Source: Patescibacteria group bacterium (GTDB lineage: Bacteria > Patescibacteriota > Patescibacteriia > 2-12-FULL-60-25). From it: a DNA stretch of 47,785 nucleotides. Below the pieces are notes generated by a model. That model had not been told where the DNA came from. It worked only from the letters and a program-made list of their open reading frames with translations, and searched no databases. How positions within the stretch are numbered: position 1 is the stretch's first letter; each line of letters begins with the position of its first letter. The DNA is taken from assembly GCA_018061755.1 (NCBI GenBank), contig JAGOTP010000008.1, positions 1 to 47,785 of the forward strand, read 5' to 3'. A program made the translations under genes and the position numbers. Below are positions 17,017 to 47,641 of this stretch, in pieces.

Positions 17017-17052
17017 ATGAACCTAGTCAATCGTTCATTTTTATGTTTTTTT
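17017..17052 (+). terminator. Intrinsic terminator of the trmB-nucleotidyltransferase unit
   Basis: ATGAAC (17017-17022) pairs with GTTCAT (17033-17038), followed by a T-rich tract that runs into the 3' end of the convergent rnhA. The stem is short (6 bp). Confidence 0.55.
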
Positions 17053-17463
17053 AGCTCTTCCCATCCCCTCATCCATCGCCTGATTCGCCAAGGCATCCGC
17101 CGCTTTGTTGTATTCTCGACGAACGTGACGATAACTGACACGCGGCAATTGGCGCTCCAAGGCTTTCAATTCAGCAAAGCGTAAGGCGAGATCAGGGTTT
17201 TTGACGCGATATTCGCCTCGCGCTTGCTTGATGAGGAGTTCGCTGTCAGCGACGACTTCGACTTCTTTGGCACCCAAAACGACAGCGCGCTGTAAACCAA
17301 GGATAACCGCTTTGTATTCAGCCTGGTTGTTCGTGGTTGAACCAAGGAATTCGGCGTGTGTTTCAACGACTTCGTTATTCGCTGCATTTTCAAGCACGAC
17401 CCCAATCCCAGCTGGGCCAGGGTTGCCACGGGATCCTCCATCGGTACGGATAATCAGGTTCAT
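17041..17463 (-). CDS. rnhA: Ribonuclease HI-type protein
   Basis: 140 residues. RNase H fold that cuts the RNA strand of RNA-DNA hybrids. All four catalytic carboxylates are visible: Asp8 (TDGGSRGNPG), Glu49 (NNQAEYKA), Asp73 (VVADSELLI) and Asp123 (NKAADALANQA), plus the loop His113. The length fits the compact ypdQ/bacterial RNase HI subgroup. Last gene of the recJ - M48/ABC1 fusion - rnhA run, 14 bp after the fusion gene. Its stop is overlapped by the convergent terminator. Confidence 0.94.
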   Translation of the reverse strand: MNLIIRTDGGSRGNPGPAGIGVVLENAANNEVVETHAEFLGSTTNNQAEYKAVILGLQRAVVLGAKEVEVVADSELLIKQARGEYRVKNPDLALRFAELKALERQLPRVSYRHVRREYNKAADALANQAMDEGMGRAKKT

Positions 17464-17477
17464 AGACAGAAATACAG

Positions 17478-20400
17478 TTAGGCGTTGACGGCTTCAATCA
17501 TCCCTCTCCAACCAGCTTTTTTCGCCATACCATCGATCGAGCGCAAGTTTTTCACGACCAGAACGAAATTCGATGGTGGCCGTAAATCCGCTTCTCGCAG
17601 ACTCTGTAACAAGGTCTGAGAGGTACGGACATCCAGACTGCGACTGGCTTTTTTGATCGCACGCGTTACATCTGCGGGCATCTCCCGTCCAAGGACCGTT
17701 GTAAAATACTCCTCCAGAGCACGCGCTCGACCTGATTCCGACGGATCCATAAACAGGCTCTGCATCAATGACTGATCTGAGGCGCTGAGATCGAGATAGA
17801 GGGTACGATCGAACAAGACCAACTCATTATCCGTCGTAACCGCCTCATTCCCCGGATGAATATCAGACAAGGCCTGGCCTTGCAACAATTGACCGACGTA
17901 GGATACGGCTAATAGACGAACTAACGCTTTCACATCATGTTTATCTTTCTTCAGCTCCGACCAACGAGTGAAGTTCTTGGCTTCAACGAATTCTTCCTGA
18001 ATACACTCTGGTCGTTCCGGACCAAAAGAACGAGGAACACGTAGACGGTACCGACCGCCCTCATCCGAGAATTGATTCCAGCGTTCACGGAACGCAGCAT
18101 CTTTTTCAATAAATCCTCGGAAATCGATTTCACGATAGAGCGAATCAGCGACATCCTCAATCAATCCAGGGAGAAGACGGTACGCACCCCCATGCGCCTT
18201 GGCCAAACGGTCAGCCGAACGAAGATACAACCCCTTCGCACGATCCAAATGATAGGCGACGTTTGGGTTCAAGGTTTTCAGAACACGCTCTTCTCCCTCG
18301 TGGGTGGTTGCTCGCACAACCGTAAAGAGCGAACCGCCACCAATGCGAGCGCCGATCGTCCGATAGACCTTCCAAAAATCTGGCCAGACTCGCTCCAGAT
18401 AATGAAGCATAACGAAACGCGACTGTCCTTCTACCCGATCGTAGACATCGGCTAAATCGCGTTCTTCAGCGACCGTCAGGTTGGCCACCTGGCCTGCACT
18501 TTGTAAACCACGAACAGCTAAGGCAGAAGAATACGAAACGGTCGCCTTCACAAAACCGAGTGGCGTATGCTCCCCCACCTCCTTCACCTCACCCTGTCCA
18601 GTTTTTGAACGTATCGCCTCTAGCAACTTTCCTTCCGCATACCACATCCAGTTCTGATCATAATCCCACGGACGTTGCATTCCCACAGAACTCGGCACCT
18701 GCCAAGCATCAAGATCATTCACATCCAACTGTATCTCAAGATCCTTCTGCAACGTCTCAAGATAAGGGACTTGGCTCCAAGAAGTCTGAGCAGAAGCAGG
18801 TCCGCGTCTGAATGATTCATCTCGCAACAGAGCCACGAGACCAAGATAGATTGTTTCCCATTCGTCATCGTCCATCAACGAGGTCTCGACGCGCTCAATC
18901 ACCTTAGTCAAAGTGCTGTCTTCACCTTTTTTGATCCATTGTTCACGTAATGCTTTTACAACCTTAGCTTTTGACACATGATCGCGTAACAGTCCATTCG
19001 GCCCACCGAGTATTTTCCGAAGGAGTAAATGTCTACCAACATCTTTTGAACGGTACAATGCCTCCAAAAGAGAATTTGCCATCCTGACCACAGCTCCTCC
19101 CAGATACGCCCTATTTGCGTTTCTCGCTGAAGTTCGTACTTCGCCCGTCACATCTTCAGTCAGCATTTCCTCCACGTGCGCATCATCCGCGGCTTGTATC
19201 TCTAAGATCTGCATGTTTCTCCAAGCTTGCCGCAACAAAAACGTACGTAAACGACTATCATCCTCCTTCGTTAAAATAGCTGCCTGCACAAATTCCAGGA
19301 GTTCATCGGCAGAGAGGGCTGGCAATATTTTTTCAGCAAAAATCGCCATGCCATGAGAAAGTACTCCGTTTTGCTCAATATATTCGACCTTTTTTTCGAG
19401 AGTAGACACGGCTGCACGGTAATCCGTTTGGGTAAACGGCTCACGCTCGGCCAACTCCCTCGCCACCACGACGCCTGGTAACTCCGGATCCCGCTCCCCA
19501 GCACCAATCACAGCCGTTACTTTTTCAACAAATGAACGCTGTTTGAACATTAGTGACTGAGCCAACCAATCGGCATACTCCGCACGAATAGAAGCATCTT
19601 GAAGTAAACTCCCTAAACCAACACGTTCCTCAAAGGAAATCGTTTCCATTTCACCCGACGCCAGAGCTTCGGCTACGCGATTCAATACGGGACCGATTCG
19701 TCCACTTTCTTTCCATCTTATAGGCAGCAAAGCGACAATTCTAGGTTCATGCAATAGTCTGACAAGTTCTCGTACCGAAGGAGCTTTCGAGAGGAAGGCG
19801 ACAAAACAATGAATCTTAAATCTATCGCCGTCCTCAATTGTGCCAGTGAGATGCTGAGTCAGCTGAAGTACTTCGATAAGACCGGCTTCATCCAGATTCA
19901 TGATCTCATCCTGTGCAGCCATCGCCTCTTCCACCTCCTGAGCCATCTTGAGCACGAGTGAAATATTCAAGTTTTTACTATCCCGATCTCCAGACAAAGG
20001 AACTGCATCATCAAATCCCTCGTGTCGTCGCAGGTGGACAACATTTTCGTAAGTCTTTGACAAAGCACTGACACCCATCCGTGCCTTAGCATATAAAACT
20101 AACTGCTTGGCAACCGTTGAAAATCCTTCAAACGCGGGATGCGTCAACACCACTGTTCGAATAATCGAGAATTCCATCAATCGAAATACCGTCTCCTCCT
20201 CGTTCCTTGAAAGAGCCTCTATACCCTTCAATACGCCTTGAAAGGTCTTGAATTGTTTAAACAAATCGCACACATTCTCCGTAAACCCATCAAATGCCTC
20301 TTGCGTGTATCCCTCTCGAAAAAAATAATCCTTCTCACCGGTCTTCTTCTGGATCTTCATCAGTACATCGCTCTCGGGATCAATCACCTCCTCCTGTCCA

Positions 20401-21968
20401 AGCAAAGCAACCGCTCTTGGATGAGCGAATAATCTTCTTCTCAAAGCGATCACCCGCTGGCTCCCCGCGAACACATGATCTCGAATGAGCGAAGACACCT
20501 CTTTTGGTACAGCAACCGAGATCGCCCATTCGTCGAAGATGTGATGAGCTGCCTCCCTATAGCCAGTCGATACCTCCCCCGTCTGAGGAGCATCTTGCAG
20601 CATCTGCACGCTGGTACGCACCATAGGAGTTACCGCATCCCACCATGCTGCGCACGCTTCATCCGTTTGTGGCACAGTCGGAAATTTACTCACCAGCCAA
20701 TGGGCACAAGCGTCTTTTAGATCGGATTTCTGCCTGACCAACCCCAATCCTTCTTCTCCTGAACCACTGGTTAAGCTCTGCATCGTATCCAATGCAGCAC
20801 TTACACCCGTTCCTATAAAGCTCATGAACTCAAGCTCTCTACGCATGTAATACCAACAGTCTTGAGTAGCCTGTTCGGGCAATACCGTGCGTGCGGCATA
20901 GACGGCAGATACCGCCAAGCCAACCGCTAATGGCTCTTTTCGATAAGCGTCGTGCACCGATAGCCTCTCAGCCAACCGTCCGGCCAAAACGTTCATTGGC
21001 GGAAAAGCACAGTCATGCAGCATGCGTTTGCCAGCACGGATAGCCTTCGCAATAGGTACTTCATGGAAACGCTCCCACATTGCCTGTAAGGCTTCTGGCA
21101 AGAGACATACGGGGACTCGTCGAGCTTCAGCCAACTGCCGCTCCAGCAATTCTTTGGCCGCTGGCGCTTTCATTTCAAATGATCGCTCATGTAACGCAGG
21201 AAACCCATGGGTTCCCCGTCGTTCATCTGCCCAACCTGCAACACGCTCATCCAACGGCATCAATGGCCTATTCGTGTTCGGTAAATGGATGGTGGCAAGC
21301 AGCTCCGTGATATTCAGCCCACGCTCATGCGTAGACCCATGCACAGAGCCACCACTACCCCTCCCTTCACGACGCGCCATCTCTTCTAAAAATTGTTTGT
21401 ACGCCAAGGCATTAAACCCAAGTTTATCCAATTCGATAATGGCACCTTGCAGATCAGCAATAAATTCATGAGCACGACCAGCGCTCATGCCTTCCATGAC
21501 ACTCGTCATGACCGATTCTCCGGCTCGCTCTTTCCCTTGCACCTTCTTAGCTTTCTCGTATCTCGCCTCTGTATGTTTACGCTGAAAATGAGTCCACTCG
21601 TGCAACAATATCCCTAAAGTAGCCTCTGGGGCTTGCGCTTGCTTGACCAACTTAGGCGTAATAAAAAACGTTCCGTCAGCAAAAGCGCAAGCATTAGCCG
21701 TCGGATCGTAAGGCGCAACCAAGACGCGGCAATCTTTTAGCTGTGGCAATAGACCAGCTAATTTCGATACATATGTCTGTAACGGATGATCCGGATCGCA
21801 ATATCCGATATCAAAGGTCATTCGCCTTCTCGCGCGCAAAACGAGTCTCCCAAATTCTGTGTGAAGCGCCTCAACATCTTTTGGCCACCATAGCGGATCA
21901 TCAAAGCGTTTAGGCAACTCTTCTCGTTGCTCAGTTGAGTTCGCGTCTAGTTTATTTTCAAAGGACAT
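17478..21968 (-). CDS. Giant fusion: M48-like zinc metalloprotease domain plus ABC1/UbiB-like kinase domain
   Basis: 1496 residues with no signal peptide or transmembrane helix, so probably cytoplasmic. Residues ~60-230 follow the M48 peptidase layout: NACAFADGTFFITPKLV, zinc motif HEWTH (123-127), third-ligand region EFIADLQ (Glu168), then GSTHERGLNI in place of the usual STHP. A long alpha-helical middle (about 250-1150) matches nothing I know. Residues ~1190-1480 resemble the ABC1/UbiB/ADCK atypical kinase fold: glycine-rich IGGGSLFTVVRA, Lys in RVLKTLNP (~1230), REIDF (~1278), SDIHPGN (~1370) and Asp in LFDR (~1385). The chemistry-bearing residues are present in both domains. Lies 9 bp after recJ and 14 bp before rnhA. 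Substrate and role unknown. Confidence 0.82.
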   Translation of the reverse strand: MSFENKLDANSTEQREELPKRFDDPLWWPKDVEALHTEFGRLVLRARRRMTFDIGYCDPDHPLQTYVSKLAGLLPQLKDCRVLVAPYDPTANACAFADGTFFITPKLVKQAQAPEATLGILLHEWTHFQRKHTEARYEKAKKVQGKERAGESVMTSVMEGMSAGRAHEFIADLQGAIIELDKLGFNALAYKQFLEEMARREGRGSGGSVHGSTHERGLNITELLATIHLPNTNRPLMPLDERVAGWADERRGTHGFPALHERSFEMKAPAAKELLERQLAEARRVPVCLLPEALQAMWERFHEVPIAKAIRAGKRMLHDCAFPPMNVLAGRLAERLSVHDAYRKEPLAVGLAVSAVYAARTVLPEQATQDCWYYMRRELEFMSFIGTGVSAALDTMQSLTSGSGEEGLGLVRQKSDLKDACAHWLVSKFPTVPQTDEACAAWWDAVTPMVRTSVQMLQDAPQTGEVSTGYREAAHHIFDEWAISVAVPKEVSSLIRDHVFAGSQRVIALRRRLFAHPRAVALLGQEEVIDPESDVLMKIQKKTGEKDYFFREGYTQEAFDGFTENVCDLFKQFKTFQGVLKGIEALSRNEEETVFRLMEFSIIRTVVLTHPAFEGFSTVAKQLVLYAKARMGVSALSKTYENVVHLRRHEGFDDAVPLSGDRDSKNLNISLVLKMAQEVEEAMAAQDEIMNLDEAGLIEVLQLTQHLTGTIEDGDRFKIHCFVAFLSKAPSVRELVRLLHEPRIVALLPIRWKESGRIGPVLNRVAEALASGEMETISFEERVGLGSLLQDASIRAEYADWLAQSLMFKQRSFVEKVTAVIGAGERDPELPGVVVARELAEREPFTQTDYRAAVSTLEKKVEYIEQNGVLSHGMAIFAEKILPALSADELLEFVQAAILTKEDDSRLRTFLLRQAWRNMQILEIQAADDAHVEEMLTEDVTGEVRTSARNANRAYLGGAVVRMANSLLEALYRSKDVGRHLLLRKILGGPNGLLRDHVSKAKVVKALREQWIKKGEDSTLTKVIERVETSLMDDDEWETIYLGLVALLRDESFRRGPASAQTSWSQVPYLETLQKDLEIQLDVNDLDAWQVPSSVGMQRPWDYDQNWMWYAEGKLLEAIRSKTGQGEVKEVGEHTPLGFVKATVSYSSALAVRGLQSAGQVANLTVAEERDLADVYDRVEGQSRFVMLHYLERVWPDFWKVYRTIGARIGGGSLFTVVRATTHEGEERVLKTLNPNVAYHLDRAKGLYLRSADRLAKAHGGAYRLLPGLIEDVADSLYREIDFRGFIEKDAAFRERWNQFSDEGGRYRLRVPRSFGPERPECIQEEFVEAKNFTRWSELKKDKHDVKALVRLLAVSYVGQLLQGQALSDIHPGNEAVTTDNELVLFDRTLYLDLSASDQSLMQSLFMDPSESGRARALEEYFTTVLGREMPADVTRAIKKASRSLDVRTSQTLLQSLREADLRPPSNFVLVVKNLRSIDGMAKKAGWRGMIEAVNA

Positions 21969-21977
21969 ACAAACAAC

Positions 21978-23750
21978 TTAATCAAGCTGTACTTCAAAAT
22001 CCTTCATGACTAACTGTACGTCTTTTCGCCCATTCCATTCATTCATGCCCACATGATACACGAGATCAACTCGTGCGCCGACCCGCAATTCTGACAAACG
22101 ACCACCCAATTTGAACCCAATGACTTTGCGCATCACTCCCCCGTCGGCCACCGTCAAGCGCAAATGCGCTTGAGTTGAACCGATAGCATCAGCTTTCGTC
22201 ACCAACAGATTATTCGAACGAAAAAGTGGCTTCGCGTTACCTTCCCCGAATGGCTCCAGTCGTTTCACTTCATCGACAAATGCTTCCGTAGCCTGATTCA
22301 ACGAGAGATCAGCATCGATCAAGAGCGTTGGCGTTGGCAACCCTCCTTCAAAGGCTGCGGCCGCGTGCGCATGAAGATCTTCAGCAATCTTTGGCAAGTG
22401 TTCAGGATCAGCCAGAGCAAAGCCACAGGCCTGGATATGCCCTCCAATACGTGTCAGACGATCACCCCCCGCTGTCCGCATGGCTACTGTAATATCGTAG
22501 GCTGCTGTTGAACGACCGGATCCAATCCAAGTTCCTTCGTGCGAACCAACCACGACCGTGGGACGAGCAAATCGCTCCAAAAAGCGACCGGCCACCAACC
22601 CAACCAAGGCGGGCGACCAGTTCTCATCCCAAAGAAACAGAGCTGATTTATCCGCCTTATCCAATTCGCTAATGGAATAGCGCTCCAAGAGCTGTTTTTC
22701 CGCTTGATCCATCATACGACGGGTCGCCTCTTGCCGTTCGCGATTGCAACGCTCTAGCTCTGTCGCCAAAGTAGTGGCCTCTTCCTGTGATTCAGCCAAG
22801 AGTAAGCGGAGCGCCAAACTCGCATGATCCATCCGACCTGCTGCGTTAATGCGCGGACCGATCGCGAAGCCGATCGATTCGGTATCAATTGAACCAGGCA
22901 CCAAACCAGCCGCATCGATCAGAGCCAAAAGCCCAGGACGACGTGTCTTATTCAAGACGCGTAAACCGTAGGTTTCGAGCAGGCGATTTTCACCAATGAG
23001 AGGCACAACGTCTGTGATCGTCGCGATCGCAACCAGATCCAGCAACCACTTCTCCCAACCCACTGGAATCTCCAAACCACGACGACGCGCCTCGTCCAAC
23101 AAAGCCGTCGCAAATTTAAAGGCCACCCCAACCGCTGCAAGTTTTTTAAAAGGATAGGTTTCCTCTGGCAATCCTGGATGAATCAACCAACCATCGGGCA
23201 AAATATCACCAAACTGATGATGATCAACCACGATCACGTCCATATCAGCCTGGCGCGCCAGAGCCACCTCGTCCACACACGAAATACCACAATCGACCGT
23301 GATCAAGACTTTCGTGCCGCGCTCTTTCAGTTTCGCGATGGTGGCTTTATGGATCCCGTAGCCCTCTTTGTCACGATGAGGGATGTAATAGTCAATGACA
23401 CTGTCTTGGCCCGTTCGGCTCGTTAAACGCCGTTCTATCTCCCGTAAGGTGCTAATCAAGACAGTCGAACCCGTGATTCCATCGGCATCATAATCCCCGT
23501 GAACTGTGATCAAATCGCCCGCTTCGAGAGCCAAGAATACGCGATTCATCGCCGGCACCAGATGCCGGAATTGCGAGGGATCATGCACCTGCGTCTCCCA
23601 AGAGGGCGAGAGAAACATGTCTGCCTCCTCAAAAGAACGAATCCCCCGCTGCCAAAGCAAAGTCGCAACCAAAGGCGACACCCGTGGCTGCCAGGCTTCA
23701 ATCTCAGAGGCCTGCGGGGAAGGACGAAGGGACCAGGTATACGAAGACAT
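21978..23750 (-). CDS. recJ: Single-stranded-DNA-specific exonuclease RecJ
   Basis: 590 residues from ATG 23750 (MSSYTWSLRPS, a typical RecJ N-terminus). DHH phosphoesterase motifs are in order: HGDYDADGITGST (motif I), VDCGIS, VVDHHQFGD (DHH motif III) and the DHHA1 part with GRINAAGRMDHASLAL and GGHIQACGFAL. It degrades 5'-ended single strands in recombination and repair. First of three closely spaced genes with the M48/ABC1 fusion and rnhA. No strong ribosome site; a GGG lies 4-6 nt before ATG. Confidence 0.97.
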   Translation of the reverse strand: MSSYTWSLRPSPQASEIEAWQPRVSPLVATLLWQRGIRSFEEADMFLSPSWETQVHDPSQFRHLVPAMNRVFLALEAGDLITVHGDYDADGITGSTVLISTLREIERRLTSRTGQDSVIDYYIPHRDKEGYGIHKATIAKLKERGTKVLITVDCGISCVDEVALARQADMDVIVVDHHQFGDILPDGWLIHPGLPEETYPFKKLAAVGVAFKFATALLDEARRRGLEIPVGWEKWLLDLVAIATITDVVPLIGENRLLETYGLRVLNKTRRPGLLALIDAAGLVPGSIDTESIGFAIGPRINAAGRMDHASLALRLLLAESQEEATTLATELERCNRERQEATRRMMDQAEKQLLERYSISELDKADKSALFLWDENWSPALVGLVAGRFLERFARPTVVVGSHEGTWIGSGRSTAAYDITVAMRTAGGDRLTRIGGHIQACGFALADPEHLPKIAEDLHAHAAAAFEGGLPTPTLLIDADLSLNQATEAFVDEVKRLEPFGEGNAKPLFRSNNLLVTKADAIGSTQAHLRLTVADGGVMRKVIGFKLGGRLSELRVGARVDLVYHVGMNEWNGRKDVQLVMKDFEVQLD

Positions 23751-23836
23751 GCAACCCAGTGTGACGAGGATGCAGGCGCAGGGCAAGCAGTCGTCAGCTA
23801 TCAGCCTCCATCACCCACGGGCAGACCCTCCTACTG

Positions 23837-43111: not shown

Positions 43112-46100
43112 TTAGCGCACGTAGCCCAGGACTCTGACCGCTGCCCATTCAAGAGGAGTGCTCGGCGCTCTGCGGAAGAGACTGCGATAGACCTGAATTC
43201 CACGAGCTTCTTGTGTCAAATTGCGTGGGAAGCGAATACGATACATGAGCGCATTCCAAGCCATGTTCTCTTGGGCATTTTGGAAATTCGGATCTCGTCG
43301 GTAGATCGTACGAAAGGCTGAACGAACGAGAGGCAGCTGGGCACGTTCACGCACAAGGCTTCTAGTAGCTGGTAATTCACCTGTCGTGACTCGATGCAAA
43401 TCTGCCTCAGTAGCGTTTGGACCAATCACTTGCAACAGATCTCGCACCACCGCCCGACGCTCACGTTCACCTAGACGACGCGTCTCAGCCGATACGCCAT
43501 AGGCAATAAAGTCCGCATAGACATTCTCTTGCTCTGGAGACAATGTCACACGGAATTCTCTCGCATCCGCCCCCACGCCTCGTTCCGCACGCGATTCAGC
43601 AGCTGGATCTTCAGCCAAGCCAAGAAACGCCAGCAAAGATGCTTCATCTTTCGTTGAAATGTAAGGCAAGATAGTTGGGGTCGGAACAACTTCATCAATC
43701 GGATCGAATACCGGAAGAGGGTTTGTTGGGACAGTTGTTCCAGGAAGTGGATTGGTTGAGGTCAGAACAGGATTCAACTGAAATACGTTCATCGGTGATC
43801 CTCCACCACCCCCGCCACCAACTGCACCGCCGCCGCCACCTCCTCCACCACCCCCGCCGCCGCCACTAGAAGCAGCACTCTCATCTTCGATGATTGAGAT
43901 GACGACCGGAGACAAGGATAACGAGGAATAACCAACTACCGTCGAAGAAACGGTCAGCGTCACGTTGGCGGAGCGATTGCCGCTATAGACACCGTCATCA
44001 ACCGAAGTGACGTAGACAGTCGCCGGTGTGGCGTAATTACCAGGCGTAAAGGCGATGCTTGAAGTCGATACCGATAAGCCAGATCCAGCTACCACCAGAA
44101 CCTCAACCGTCGTAGTAGGCGCAATCCCTAGCACGATCGTAAACGATTCCGCGCGACCTTCTATCAGCGAAACCGAACTTGTGGAAACAGCGATCGAGGC
44201 CGTTTCATCGTCAGCGATGGTAGCCACTATATTCGAGATACTTGGCCCACCGAAACTATAGCCGTAAGCATAACCAGACGGAACCGTCGCCACATGCGTA
44301 ATGGTTCCCGTATGTGTCCCCTCCAAATCAGTATCTTGGGCCGCGTTCAGGGTGATCGTTTGTGGGGTTGACCAGTTACTAGAGGTAAAGTCCAAGGTCG
44401 TCGTACTGACCGTCAACTCAGACTCTGCGACCAAAATAACGCGGATGGTCGAAGTGGGTTGCGAAGTCAAAACCAGAGTATAGGTCGACGAAGCACCACC
44501 TTCCGACAAGCTCATCGTCGTAATGCTTGGCGTCACTCCTGCAGTGTCATTATCGAGGATGGTATAGGTCGTTGTTGCGTTGCTACTGATCGTCGCATTT
44601 ACGGGAGAAGACAACGCAATCCCGATCGTCTCGCTCGTCTCAGCAATCGAATCATCGATGATTACGAGAGAGATGGTTGTGCTCGTTTGACCCGCCGTAA
44701 TTGTCGCTGTTCCTGGGGAAAAAGTATAATCAACTCCGGATCCAATAGCTGTCGACGAGGCTTCATAGACAGCATAATCAACGGTAATATCCTCAAAGTG
44801 CGCTGCGCTCAAAATGATCTTTACCGACGTTGCCGTAACAGATTCAGCCCCAGACAAGCTAGCTGACAAAAATTCGACACTCGGTGTAGCCGTATCAACC
44901 ACGAAGGCAATCGCTCCGCTATTAGCTACTGTATATGCTGATTCAGCTGCGTACTGGTCAATCGTTTTCACACGCCAGTAGTAGGAAGCGCTCGATAATG
45001 TTTGATCATTGCTTCCAACGGTATATGAGCCGGATCCAGCTGCTTGACCAACGAGAAATGAAAACGCTCCTTGTGCCGCCAAGGCACTGGTATAATCAAC
45101 CACTGGGGAACTAAAATCTGAAGAGTTATCGATTTGAATGCGATATTGGACTGTATCTGCTCCATTTGAGTCAGATAACGAAAAGAAAAAGGTTGGCGTA
45201 CCAGTGCCTGTTGTCGATCCGTTTACAAGTCCCGTTGGAGCAAGCGAAGCCGGAACAAACGGGCTGGTATTTGACTGGAAAGTATAGATCGTTCCGGCTG
45301 TACCCGCAGCACCACCACCTCCCGTACCAACTCGCCCAGCACTGGTCGAAGATGTTCCGCTAAAAGATACTCCACCGTAACTCATCGCAATTCGACCACC
45401 GCCTCCACCACCCGCGCCGCTCCCTCCATCAGCACCAGCACCACCATCAGCCGTAATCGCGCCGAACCCTGCCAAACTACCCAAGACAAGATTCACGCTA
45501 CCACCTGATCCACCGCCACCACCGGACCATGCGCCGCTGTAACGCCCCTGACCTCCATCAGCTCGAATCGAACCATCGACTGTCAAAGCACCCGTCACCG
45601 TCAAATGAACAACTCCACCGGCACCACCGCCCCAACCCGTATTGGTAAAATAACCACCACCACCGCTCGATCCAAACAAGATCGGATAGGTTGAAGATCC
45701 ATAGGTTGCCGTACTACCAGCCACGCCCGCCCCAAGACCAATTGATCCATTTCCCCCAACTCCGGCGTGTGCCGCGCCACTCCCACTATCTCCACTTCCA
45801 CCACTACCGCGTCCATATCCACCAACCGAGCGGCCACAAATCCCTGTCGTGACGTCCGGACCAAAACCATCATCAGCCCCCATTGAGCGAGGACAGCCAC
45901 GCGATGAAGCGTTAATACTCGAACGAGCATCAATCGAAAGAGAGGTTAGAGCGGTAGACGAGACGCTCGATGAAATGGTTGAACTCACCATCGTCAAAGG
46001 AATACTCTGCGGTAAAAACAGAAAACCCCCATTGATATCCAAAATACCTGCATCATTCGTAGAGAAGGTCAGATCACGCAAAGTAAGCGGTGACGAGATA

Positions 46101-47515
46101 TTCCAAGTAGAACGAGCACCCGACTGCCCCAACACAAGACTAGTCGTCACGTTTGTCCACGCTGGTGCGGTAATATTGACCGTGGTAGCCGCTGAAAAAG
46201 TCATCGATGTATTCGTCGTCGACAAACCAGCGGTTGAAGCAATTAAAATATCAGCAACTGAAGCCGTACAAGCCCAGGTGACATTATCGAGCACCAACCA
46301 AGCCACTGAAGAAACTGTCAACGCACTCGAAGTCGTACACCCAAGTGCCGTTCCTGTCGTCACTGAAAGAGCGTCTCTGGTGTAATCACCTCCTACTGGA
46401 AAATCAAAGCCGTAAGCCAAGCTCAGCGTTCCAGCTCCATCATCCGCATATCTGTTTAAAAAATAAGCAGTTCCAACTGAACCATTAACACCGTCTCCAT
46501 CAGCACCACCCGCACCACCAGCTCCAGCCGCCGCAGTGATATGCGACAAAGAAAAAGTTGAAGCCGCTCCGTAAAACACGGCTACTCTTCCAGCCGAACC
46601 ACCCCCACCACCAGCTCCACCGGTACCACCATTCACCGATACACTCCCGCTTCCGGCGAAGATTCCAGCATGAATCAAAATCGATCCACCAGCGCCTCCA
46701 CCGCCACCGTTAAAAACGCCATCATACCCCCCATTTCCACCGCGTGCGAGGATACGACCATTCACCGTTAATGTTCCCGTTGAAGTCACATGAATCAACC
46801 CACCGCCCGCTCCACCAAAAGCGGTCGTGTAATAGCCCGTACCACCACCTGAGCCAAGAAAATTAGGTGCTAGTGAATTTCCATAGATCACACTCCCCCC
46901 AGCTCTCGAAGGTCCGCCACCGCCGCCAACGCCGGCATGAGAGCCACCGCCGCCACCATTACCTGAACCATCACCACCACGACCATAACCACCCGTCTGA
47001 AAGCCACACAAACCCGTGCCAACATCCACGCCATAGCCATCAGCGCCATTCAATGCAGCCGCTCGACAGCCCTTCTCTGAAGCAGACAAATCACCTGAAA
47101 TCGTAATATTTCTCGCGGTAATTCTAATACCTCCTGGATCTTCAAACGTATGCGTCGTTGTCGCATTCGTTTCAATCACAAAATCATCCGTACTGCCCAA
47201 AATCATTTCGCTCGAAGAGCCCATGGCCATAATCGAGCCGCTCTTGACCGTAACCGTTCCAGCGCCTTGCAAATCGACTGTTCCAATCCAAGTCGTACTC
47301 ACACTCCCTAATGCATCGATTTCGATTGCACTACACGAACCAGCATCAACGTAGGCCTGATCAACAACGGTATCAGAAGCAATCGTACAAACGGCAGCTT
47401 GAACTGAAGAACCATTCATCAACCAAAATGCCGACAGAAACAAGATAAAAAAACCTTTTGACAAAGGTGAAAATACCCTCTCAGAAATGAGCGAAAGAAC
47501 TCGTCTAATAGCCAT
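43112..47515 (-). CDS. Giant glycine-rich surface protein with Calx-beta-like domains
   Basis: 1467 residues from ATG 47515, which opens a signal peptide (MAIRRVLSLISERVF ... SSVQAA); the longer upstream frame crosses a terminator. Order: beta-rich N-terminus; a ~175-residue Gly-rich domain; spacer; a second copy of that domain; an FN3-like segment with YYWRVKTID; a Calx-beta-like domain (GVDYTFSPGTATITAG); two more beta-sandwich repeats (~115 residues each, SEGGASSTYTLVL and IEGRAESFTIVLG); an almost pure Gly linker; and a helical, charged C-terminal domain of ~190 residues. No LPxTG or C-terminal helix, so the anchoring mode is unclear. It is probably a long surface fibre or adhesin. The upstream glycan operon and Dsb system may serve it. 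Confidence 0.88.
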   Translation of the reverse strand: MAIRRVLSLISERVFSPLSKGFFILFLSAFWLMNGSSVQAAVCTIASDTVVDQAYVDAGSCSAIEIDALGSVSTTWIGTVDLQGAGTVTVKSGSIMAMGSSSEMILGSTDDFVIETNATTTHTFEDPGGIRITARNITISGDLSASEKGCRAAALNGADGYGVDVGTGLCGFQTGGYGRGGDGSGNGGGGGSHAGVGGGGGPSRAGGSVIYGNSLAPNFLGSGGGTGYYTTAFGGAGGGLIHVTSTGTLTVNGRILARGGNGGYDGVFNGGGGGAGGSILIHAGIFAGSGSVSVNGGTGGAGGGGGSAGRVAVFYGAASTFSLSHITAAAGAGGAGGADGDGVNGSVGTAYFLNRYADDGAGTLSLAYGFDFPVGGDYTRDALSVTTGTALGCTTSSALTVSSVAWLVLDNVTWACTASVADILIASTAGLSTTNTSMTFSAATTVNITAPAWTNVTTSLVLGQSGARSTWNISSPLTLRDLTFSTNDAGILDINGGFLFLPQSIPLTMVSSTISSSVSSTALTSLSIDARSSINASSRGCPRSMGADDGFGPDVTTGICGRSVGGYGRGSGGSGDSGSGAAHAGVGGNGSIGLGAGVAGSTATYGSSTYPILFGSSGGGGYFTNTGWGGGAGGVVHLTVTGALTVDGSIRADGGQGRYSGAWSGGGGGSGGSVNLVLGSLAGFGAITADGGAGADGGSGAGGGGGGRIAMSYGGVSFSGTSSTSAGRVGTGGGGAAGTAGTIYTFQSNTSPFVPASLAPTGLVNGSTTGTGTPTFFFSLSDSNGADTVQYRIQIDNSSDFSSPVVDYTSALAAQGAFSFLVGQAAGSGSYTVGSNDQTLSSASYYWRVKTIDQYAAESAYTVANSGAIAFVVDTATPSVEFLSASLSGAESVTATSVKIILSAAHFEDITVDYAVYEASSTAIGSGVDYTFSPGTATITAGQTSTTISLVIIDDSIAETSETIGIALSSPVNATISSNATTTYTILDNDTAGVTPSITTMSLSEGGASSTYTLVLTSQPTSTIRVILVAESELTVSTTTLDFTSSNWSTPQTITLNAAQDTDLEGTHTGTITHVATVPSGYAYGYSFGGPSISNIVATIADDETASIAVSTSSVSLIEGRAESFTIVLGIAPTTTVEVLVVAGSGLSVSTSSIAFTPGNYATPATVYVTSVDDGVYSGNRSANVTLTVSSTVVGYSSLSLSPVVISIIEDESAASSGGGGGGGGGGGGGAVGGGGGGGSPMNVFQLNPVLTSTNPLPGTTVPTNPLPVFDPIDEVVPTPTILPYISTKDEASLLAFLGLAEDPAAESRAERGVGADAREFRVTLSPEQENVYADFIAYGVSAETRRLGERERRAVVRDLLQVIGPNATEADLHRVTTGELPATRSLVRERAQLPLVRSAFRTIYRRDPNFQNAQENMAWNALMYRIRFPRNLTQEARGIQVYRSLFRRAPSTPLEWAAVRVLGYVR
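43797..43866 (-). repeat. Poly-glycine codon tract
   Basis: A run of GGN codons encodes about 23 residues, all Gly except one Ala-Val pair, linking the beta-sandwich repeats to the C-terminal domain of the surface protein. Such tracts are prone to length change by slippage. Confidence 0.8.
45370..45905 (-). repeat. Second copy of the glycine-rich domain
   Basis: It encodes about 178 residues beginning with RGCPRSMGADDGFGPDVTTG and ending at GGGGRIAMSYGG. The order of Cys, GGYGRG, HAGVGG, LTVDGSI and GGxGGS blocks matches the copy at 46570-47085, so this is an internal domain duplication. Confidence 0.8.
46570..47085 (-). repeat. First copy of the glycine-rich domain
   Basis: It encodes about 172 residues from KGCRAAALNGADGYGVDVGTG to GSAGRVAVFYGA. 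Both copies start with the same Cys-x...-GxCG pattern (two Cys about 22 residues apart), which could be a disulfide in each domain. Confidence 0.8.
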
Positions 47516-47527
47516 ACAAGCGAGGGT

Positions 47528-47533
47528 AGCATA
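47528..47533 (-). promoter_or_regulatory. -10 box for the surface protein gene
   Basis: Minus-strand TATGCT lies 12 nt before ATG 47515; no Shine-Dalgarno and no good -35. The TATnCT-ACCC arrangement resembles that of pilM. Confidence 0.4.
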
Positions 47534-47599
47534 AACCGAACCCGCACAAAAGGGATAAGCCTTAAAAGGGCACGGGTGTGAAGGATCCTTTTTCGTCAA

Positions 47600-47641
47600 A
47601 AAACAAAGAACCCCTGGCATATGCCGGGGGTTCTTTGTTTT
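47600..47641. terminator. Strong bidirectional intrinsic terminator
   Basis: A 42-bp near-perfect inverted repeat: AAAACAAAGAACCCC pairs with GGGGTTCTTTGTTTT, and the inner GGC-ATAT-GCC extends it. It separates the surface protein gene from whatever lies beyond the window. Confidence 0.9.

Follow-up and report, generated by a model that had tools for sequence, protein, structure and literature searches.

M48 metallopeptidase and ABC1/UbiB kinase-like domains paired in a family of giant Patescibacteria proteins

In the M48 peptidase BepA of E. coli, an active-site plug closes the zinc site, and mutation of the plug histidine deregulates the enzyme (PMC7950410). Proteins of the ABC1/UbiB type occur widely in all domains of life, and it is still disputed whether their output is that of an ATPase, a lipid kinase or a protein kinase. 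Here, we describe a gene encoding both domains in a single chain of 1496 amino acids, located in a 47,785-nucleotide stretch of DNA from a Patescibacteria group bacterium (assembly GCA_018061755.1, contig JAGOTP010000008.1, positions 1 to 47,785), hereinafter the window; the source genome is a draft of approximately 1.15 Mb in 37 contigs. The protein, soluble and cytosolic, belongs to a Patescibacteria family that combines M48 and ABC1 domains, and the conserved pairing of these domains in 20 related loci suggests an undescribed ATP-controlled protease. A literature search for this architecture, covering open-access papers, found nothing.

Two domains of the window protein

The original prediction, made from the sequence alone, had placed an M48 zinc site and an ABC1 kinase core, both apparently intact, in this one protein, and the Pfam matches, homologue profiles and conserved residues bear this out. 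In a hidden Markov model search, ABC1 (PF03109) matched residues 1209–1413 above the cut-off (E = 1.8e-13; 50.7 bits versus 22.9), whereas M48 (PF01435) in the window protein alone was sub-threshold (residues 83–141, E = 0.0023; 18.2 bits versus 20.3). In the homologues, the M48 match can be far above the cut-off (8.1e-10 in P0003, 3.1e-15 in P0004), and most of them pass it, including also G373, G719, G434, G597, G447, G098 and the scanned M48 halves of split pairs. A single-sequence PDB search with the window protein gave no match; profile matches are listed in Table 1.

The motifs lie where originally described, namely HEWTH at H123–H127, Glu168, K1231, SDIHPGN at S1368–N1374, and D1387 followed by Arg. 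In the M48 half, H123, H127 and E168 are the zinc ligands, E124 is the catalytic residue, and H210-x5-R216 forms the plug. Only the GSTHE segment had to be reinterpreted: H214 is not the key histidine, and the segment is a part of HGSTHER, where the invariant histidine is H210 and which aligns with the HPx4R plug of BepA. The plug starts with HG in the window subfamily and with HP in most other members. With its catalytic residues intact, the M48 half is predicted to be a zinc-dependent protease, and since the plug is conserved, it seems to be a protease built to be regulated.

In the ABC1 half, the KxGQ motif reads RxLQ in the window subfamily and is a true KxGQ in the split members and in G447 and G098. 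A GQS at residues 1181–1183 was considered for this motif and rejected, as the alignment gives R1153–Q1156 as the true equivalent. The nucleotide loop is GGGS in the window subfamily, GSAS or GAAS in most other giants, and AAAS-like in the UbiB-type controls; the DFG position is DR in the window subfamily versus DF or DL. The kinase residues being conserved, nucleotide handling has presumably been kept. In COQ8A, the loop substitution A339G yields a catalytically hyperactive protein with more autophosphorylation (PMC7877690, PMC7263595). Position 1212 of the window protein, where COQ8A has A339, is naturally Gly, and by analogy it may act in the same way.

The VAIK lysine is lost in three members that keep the Asp and Asn residues and the M48 site, being replaced by Arg in G080 (L040 6708–11120 (-)) and G373 (L041 1390–5820 (+)) and by Ser in G434 (L045 5515–10338 (+)). 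Judging by these residues, the three may be pseudokinases or ATP-binding switches. As the lysine is absent from them, strict kinase activity seems not to be required in every member, and such members would perhaps act as ATPases rather than by phosphotransfer.

The window protein scored 35.8 bits against the UbiB equivalog TIGR01982 (NCBIfam; cut-off 487.55), and thus it is not UbiB itself. The predicted lack of a transmembrane segment was confirmed by Kyte–Doolittle hydropathy, the top 19-residue mean being 1.38 in the window protein and below 1.95 across the 15 sequences checked, none of which has a transmembrane-like segment; hence, the window protein also has no membrane anchor of the UbiB/COQ8 type.

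The two domains are separated by a predicted helical linker of approximately 850 residues, for which profile searches against PDB gave nothing usable. An LLxGExGLL-like motif occurs at a similar place upstream of the kinase in 14 of the 19 members, compared to 1.4 expected by shuffling, the motif having been chosen after the fact. Common ancestry of the whole chain across subfamilies is likely.

Fused and split members of the family

In Patescibacteria, samples of which were covered by the genome searches, we observe 20 loci of the giant family, comprising fused (n = 12, the window protein included; 1458–1965 amino acids) and split (n = 8) members. P0003, a protein of 1458 amino acids from another genus, passes the Pfam cut-offs for both domains, while P0004, a paralogue of 1569 amino acids on another contig of the window genome, passes that for M48 and is just below that for ABC1. 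A full-length relative is encoded in Candidatus Uhrbacteria (JAIOPK010000006.1). When class- and phylum-level genome sets were searched with profiles, G080, G373, G543, G719, G434 and the split pair G234 were recovered. The ABC1 part used by itself as the query, which could have no bias towards M48, brought in G597, G447, G404 and the split pair G020, and then G098, the split pairs G345, G006, G217, G062 and G003, as well as G235. Two all-species scans with short patterns found P0003 alone.

Among the eight split genomes, the M48 and ABC1 genes form a complete, touching pair in six, and contig ends interrupt it in the remaining two. In the complete pairs (L048, L042, L059, L061, L062, L064), a gene for an M48 protein of 920–1013 amino acids is situated directly upstream of that for an ABC1 protein of 1415–1529 amino acids, on the same strand, with the ends touching or overlapping. 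The M48 half of G003 is truncated at a contig end, and its C-terminal part matches other M48 halves; in G235 the halves sit at the ends of two contigs and are presumably adjacent.

Thus, homologues with both domains do exist, and each of the 20 giant ABC1 proteins comes with an M48 partner; for G003 and G235, the pairing extends to a contig end or across it. In the reciprocal search, M48 halves had matches in 7 of 272 genomes, and the ABC1 part was present in all seven. As a control, we considered loci of stand-alone UbiB-type ABC1 genes (n = 14, some with short flanks), and none had M48 nearby. The domains being fused or encoded by touching genes indicates that they work together.

The family was found in 13 of 381 class-level genomes. 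Its members are only about 15–30% identical, although the catalytic and regulatory residues are still conserved. In BLAST comparisons, the split halves match the fused G447, G098, G719 and G597 over the kinase and 200–300 residues upstream of it, helical sequence included. The kinase-domain tree places UbiB-type proteins on one side and M48-linked ones on the other (86/98); the split members form one clade (96/97), and P0001, the window protein, pairs with P0003 (99/97). The long branches of G404, G434 and G543 make the deeper order unsure. Two open reading frames of G533 with weak ABC1 matches (1365–1380 amino acids; L050 6825–10967 (+) and L051 5141–9238 (-)) were left out, as they have neither the N-terminal HExxH nor DxHxGN.

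Table 1. Coordinates of the gene, its domains and motifs, and the adjacent genes in the window.
Feature	Position	Strand	Basis
Whole gene, 1496-aa M48–helical–ABC1 protein (P0001)	17478..21968, including stop	-	Open frame; full-length homologues P0003, P0004, G080, G373
M48 metallopeptidase domain, about residues 50–240	21249..21821	-	A3 profile versus PDB 3c37, 4e-27; BepA 6ait, 1e-19
HEWTH zinc/catalytic motif, H123–H127	21588..21602	-	H123, E124, H127 invariant in 12 aligned members
Third zinc ligand E168 in EFIAD (ExxAD)	21453..21467	-	Invariant in 12 aligned members
H210-GSTHE-R216, equivalent of BepA HPx4R active-site plug	21321..21341	-	H210 invariant, R216 nearly so; aligns to BepA THPLPESR
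Middle region, about residues 300–1130, predicted all-helical	18579..21071	-	No Pfam match and no known family; low-confidence AlphaFold2 secondary structure
Pre-kinase motif ILGGPNGLL (consensus LLxGExGLL/F), residues 986–994	18987..19013	-	14/19 members
ABC1/UbiB atypical kinase domain, about residues 1140–1490	17499..18551	-	Pfam 1.8e-13; A4 profile versus PDB 5yjz, 1e-21; ADCK3, 1e-12
KxGQ-motif equivalent, R1153-G-L-Q1156	18501..18512	-	Aligned with AxKxGQxLS of 5yjz/ADCK3; K to R in window subfamily
GGGS nucleotide loop, residues 1210–1213, replacing UbiB AAAS	18330..18341	-	Motif table, giants and 11 UbiB-type proteins
K1231, VAIK-type lysine	18276..18278	-	Lys in 17/20 giants
Catalytic loop D1369-IHPG-N1374	17847..17864	-	D, H, G, N invariant in 13 aligned members
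Metal-binding D1387 (DFG position, DRT in window protein)	17808..17810	-	Invariant
recJ, upstream neighbour (context only)	21978..23786	-	Pfam RecJ_OB, DHH, DHHA1
rnhA, RNase H gene, downstream neighbour (context only)	17041..17463	-	Pfam RNase_H, RVT_3

Candidate modes of action

We tentatively favour, at slightly less than even confidence, a nucleotide-controlled protease, in which a long helical arm links a BepA-like M48 zinc peptidase to an ABC1/UbiB domain. In the resting state, the M48 site would be closed by its own plug, with H210–R216 on the zinc, and client proteins would bind the helical arm, as proposed for the tetratricopeptide repeat (TPR) arm of BepA. The arm would then be moved when the ABC1 domain binds or hydrolyses ATP or autophosphorylates, the plug would open, and cleavage would follow. 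The arm as a substrate binder, the direction of control and the choice between ATPase activity and phosphotransfer are parts of this scheme that we infer. That the kinase controls the peptidase had already been suggested in the original prediction; the idea is plausible, and likelier given the fused-or-adjacent linkage and the conserved plug, but it is still a proposal. A wider claim, which we consider doubtful, would be that these are cytosolic proteases of a new class, ATP-dependent or ATP-gated, where an ABC1/UbiB domain replaces the AAA+ motor or regulator and controls M48 via a giant helical arm, across Patescibacteria as one chain or a two-gene machine.

Several points weigh against the nucleotide-controlled protease. 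The VAIK lysine is replaced in G080, G373 and G434, the middle region of the window subfamily aligns only weakly with that of the other subfamilies (hhalign probability 16%), and AlphaFold2 models of the two halves, built from a two-sequence input (the window protein and L014), have mean predicted local distance difference test scores of 33 and 43. The direction of control could also be reversed, or the two domains could merely share a client.

The main competing explanation, unlikely in our estimate, is lipid-handling quality control: the ABC1 domain would be a COQ8/UbiB-like ATPase whose targets are membrane surfaces or isoprenoid-lipid enzymes, M48 would clear enzymes of that pathway that are worn or in excess, and the fusion would keep both on the same surface. 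It is consistent with plant plastoglobules holding both ABC1 kinases and the M48 peptidase PGM48 (PMC9725166, PMC12587418), and with matches to a UbiA-family prenyltransferase and a UbiE-like methyltransferase in the window genome; due to these matches, we dropped the absence of quinone biosynthesis as an argument. On the other hand, the members checked have neither a transmembrane helix nor a UbiB-type C-terminal membrane anchor, and there is no conserved lipid-gene neighbour. The single case is a diacylglycerol-kinase-like gene (L007 11760–12506 (-)) touching the G027 member; its overlap with the start of this Uhrbacteria orthologue may hint at lipid metabolism.

Alternatively, M48 could cut the chain and thereby set the ABC1 kinase free to act on its own. 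Two separate proteins are the natural state in eight of the 20 members, and BepA appears to autoproteolyse once its plug is released (PMC7950410). However, the M48 halves of the split pairs keep all active residues though nothing needs separating there, and no conserved segment resembling a cut site was seen in the middle region, making such self-processing rather improbable.

Slightly slimmer still is the chance of an accessory conflict or defence effector, a protease armed by a kinase-like sensor. It would explain the patchy distribution at the class level and the fast divergence, orthologues having low identity; the presence of a second copy in one genome fits it as well. However, no PADLOC anti-phage defence profile matched, the neighbours are housekeeping genes rather than a defence island, and no viral or phage match to the giant protein was found. 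A plasmid search gave an ordinary archaeal ABC1 protein as the sole match.

The tight placement of the gene between recJ and rnhA, noted in the original prediction, holds, the gaps being 9 bp to the end of recJ upstream and 14 bp to the start of rnhA downstream. A DNA-stress protease linked to these genes is nevertheless very improbable and largely refuted: at the other loci, neither family recurs among the neighbours, and none of the neighbour families is common to more than three of the 20 loci. As there is no shared gene neighbourhood, the recJ/rnhA context is probably incidental, and the suggested link to DNA stress is not supported. Finally, mis-assembly or chance joining of two genes, conceivable in a draft genome, is refuted and has a negligible probability, since uninterrupted full-length homologues with the same domain order occur in other genera and families, and the paralogue lies on another contig of the window genome.

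Two very large, Gly-rich, apparently secreted surface proteins, encoded in the window (43112–47620 (-)) and directly upstream of the paralogue P0004 (L008 13190–17017 (-)), are similar in their C-terminal approximately 120 amino acids, with the core NFQNxxENxAWNxLMYRxRFPRNL. This shared stretch looks like an anchoring or sorting domain.

Comparison with known systems

With this family, a probable protease system that had not been described is added for bacteria whose genomes are very small; it is spread across Patescibacteria, albeit in a small share of the genomes. In addition, a soluble natural fusion to a plug-blocked protease would provide a cleavage readout for the use of ATP by an ABC1 domain.

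The phage family PHROG 9248 (439 positions, function unknown) matches the ABC1 half of the split form (L048 5149–9429 (-), residues 948–1140; E = 8.9e-14), and by this similarity some phages seem to carry ABC1-like proteins; in a tblastn search, no phage record matched the giant protein.

With UbiB/COQ8 (ADCK3), the window protein shares the ABC1 fold by profile, the KxGQ equivalent, the catalytic Asp and Asn, and the metal-binding Asp. It differs in having no UbiB-type anchor, in GGGS instead of AAAS, Arg instead of the KxGQ lysine and DRT instead of DFG, and in falling outside the UbiB-type clade.

With BepA (profile match 1e-19), it shares an M48 domain containing HExxH, ExxAD and the H-x5-R plug, as well as a helical arm after this domain, the HP of the BepA plug being HG in the window protein. 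However, BepA is periplasmic, shorter than 500 amino acids, has a short TPR arm and no kinase, whereas the window protein has no evident signal peptide or transmembrane segment, a far longer arm, and an ABC1 domain after the arm.

In plant plastoglobules, the M48 peptidase PGM48 and ABC1 kinases (ABC1K) are found together in one lipid particle (PMC9725166, PMC12587418). These are separate proteins on lipid droplets, with neither fusion nor operon, and hence their likeness to the window family is one of analogy; vice versa, the Patescibacteria family supports, on genetic grounds, the joint occurrence of M48 peptidases with ABC1 kinases that is seen in plastoglobules.

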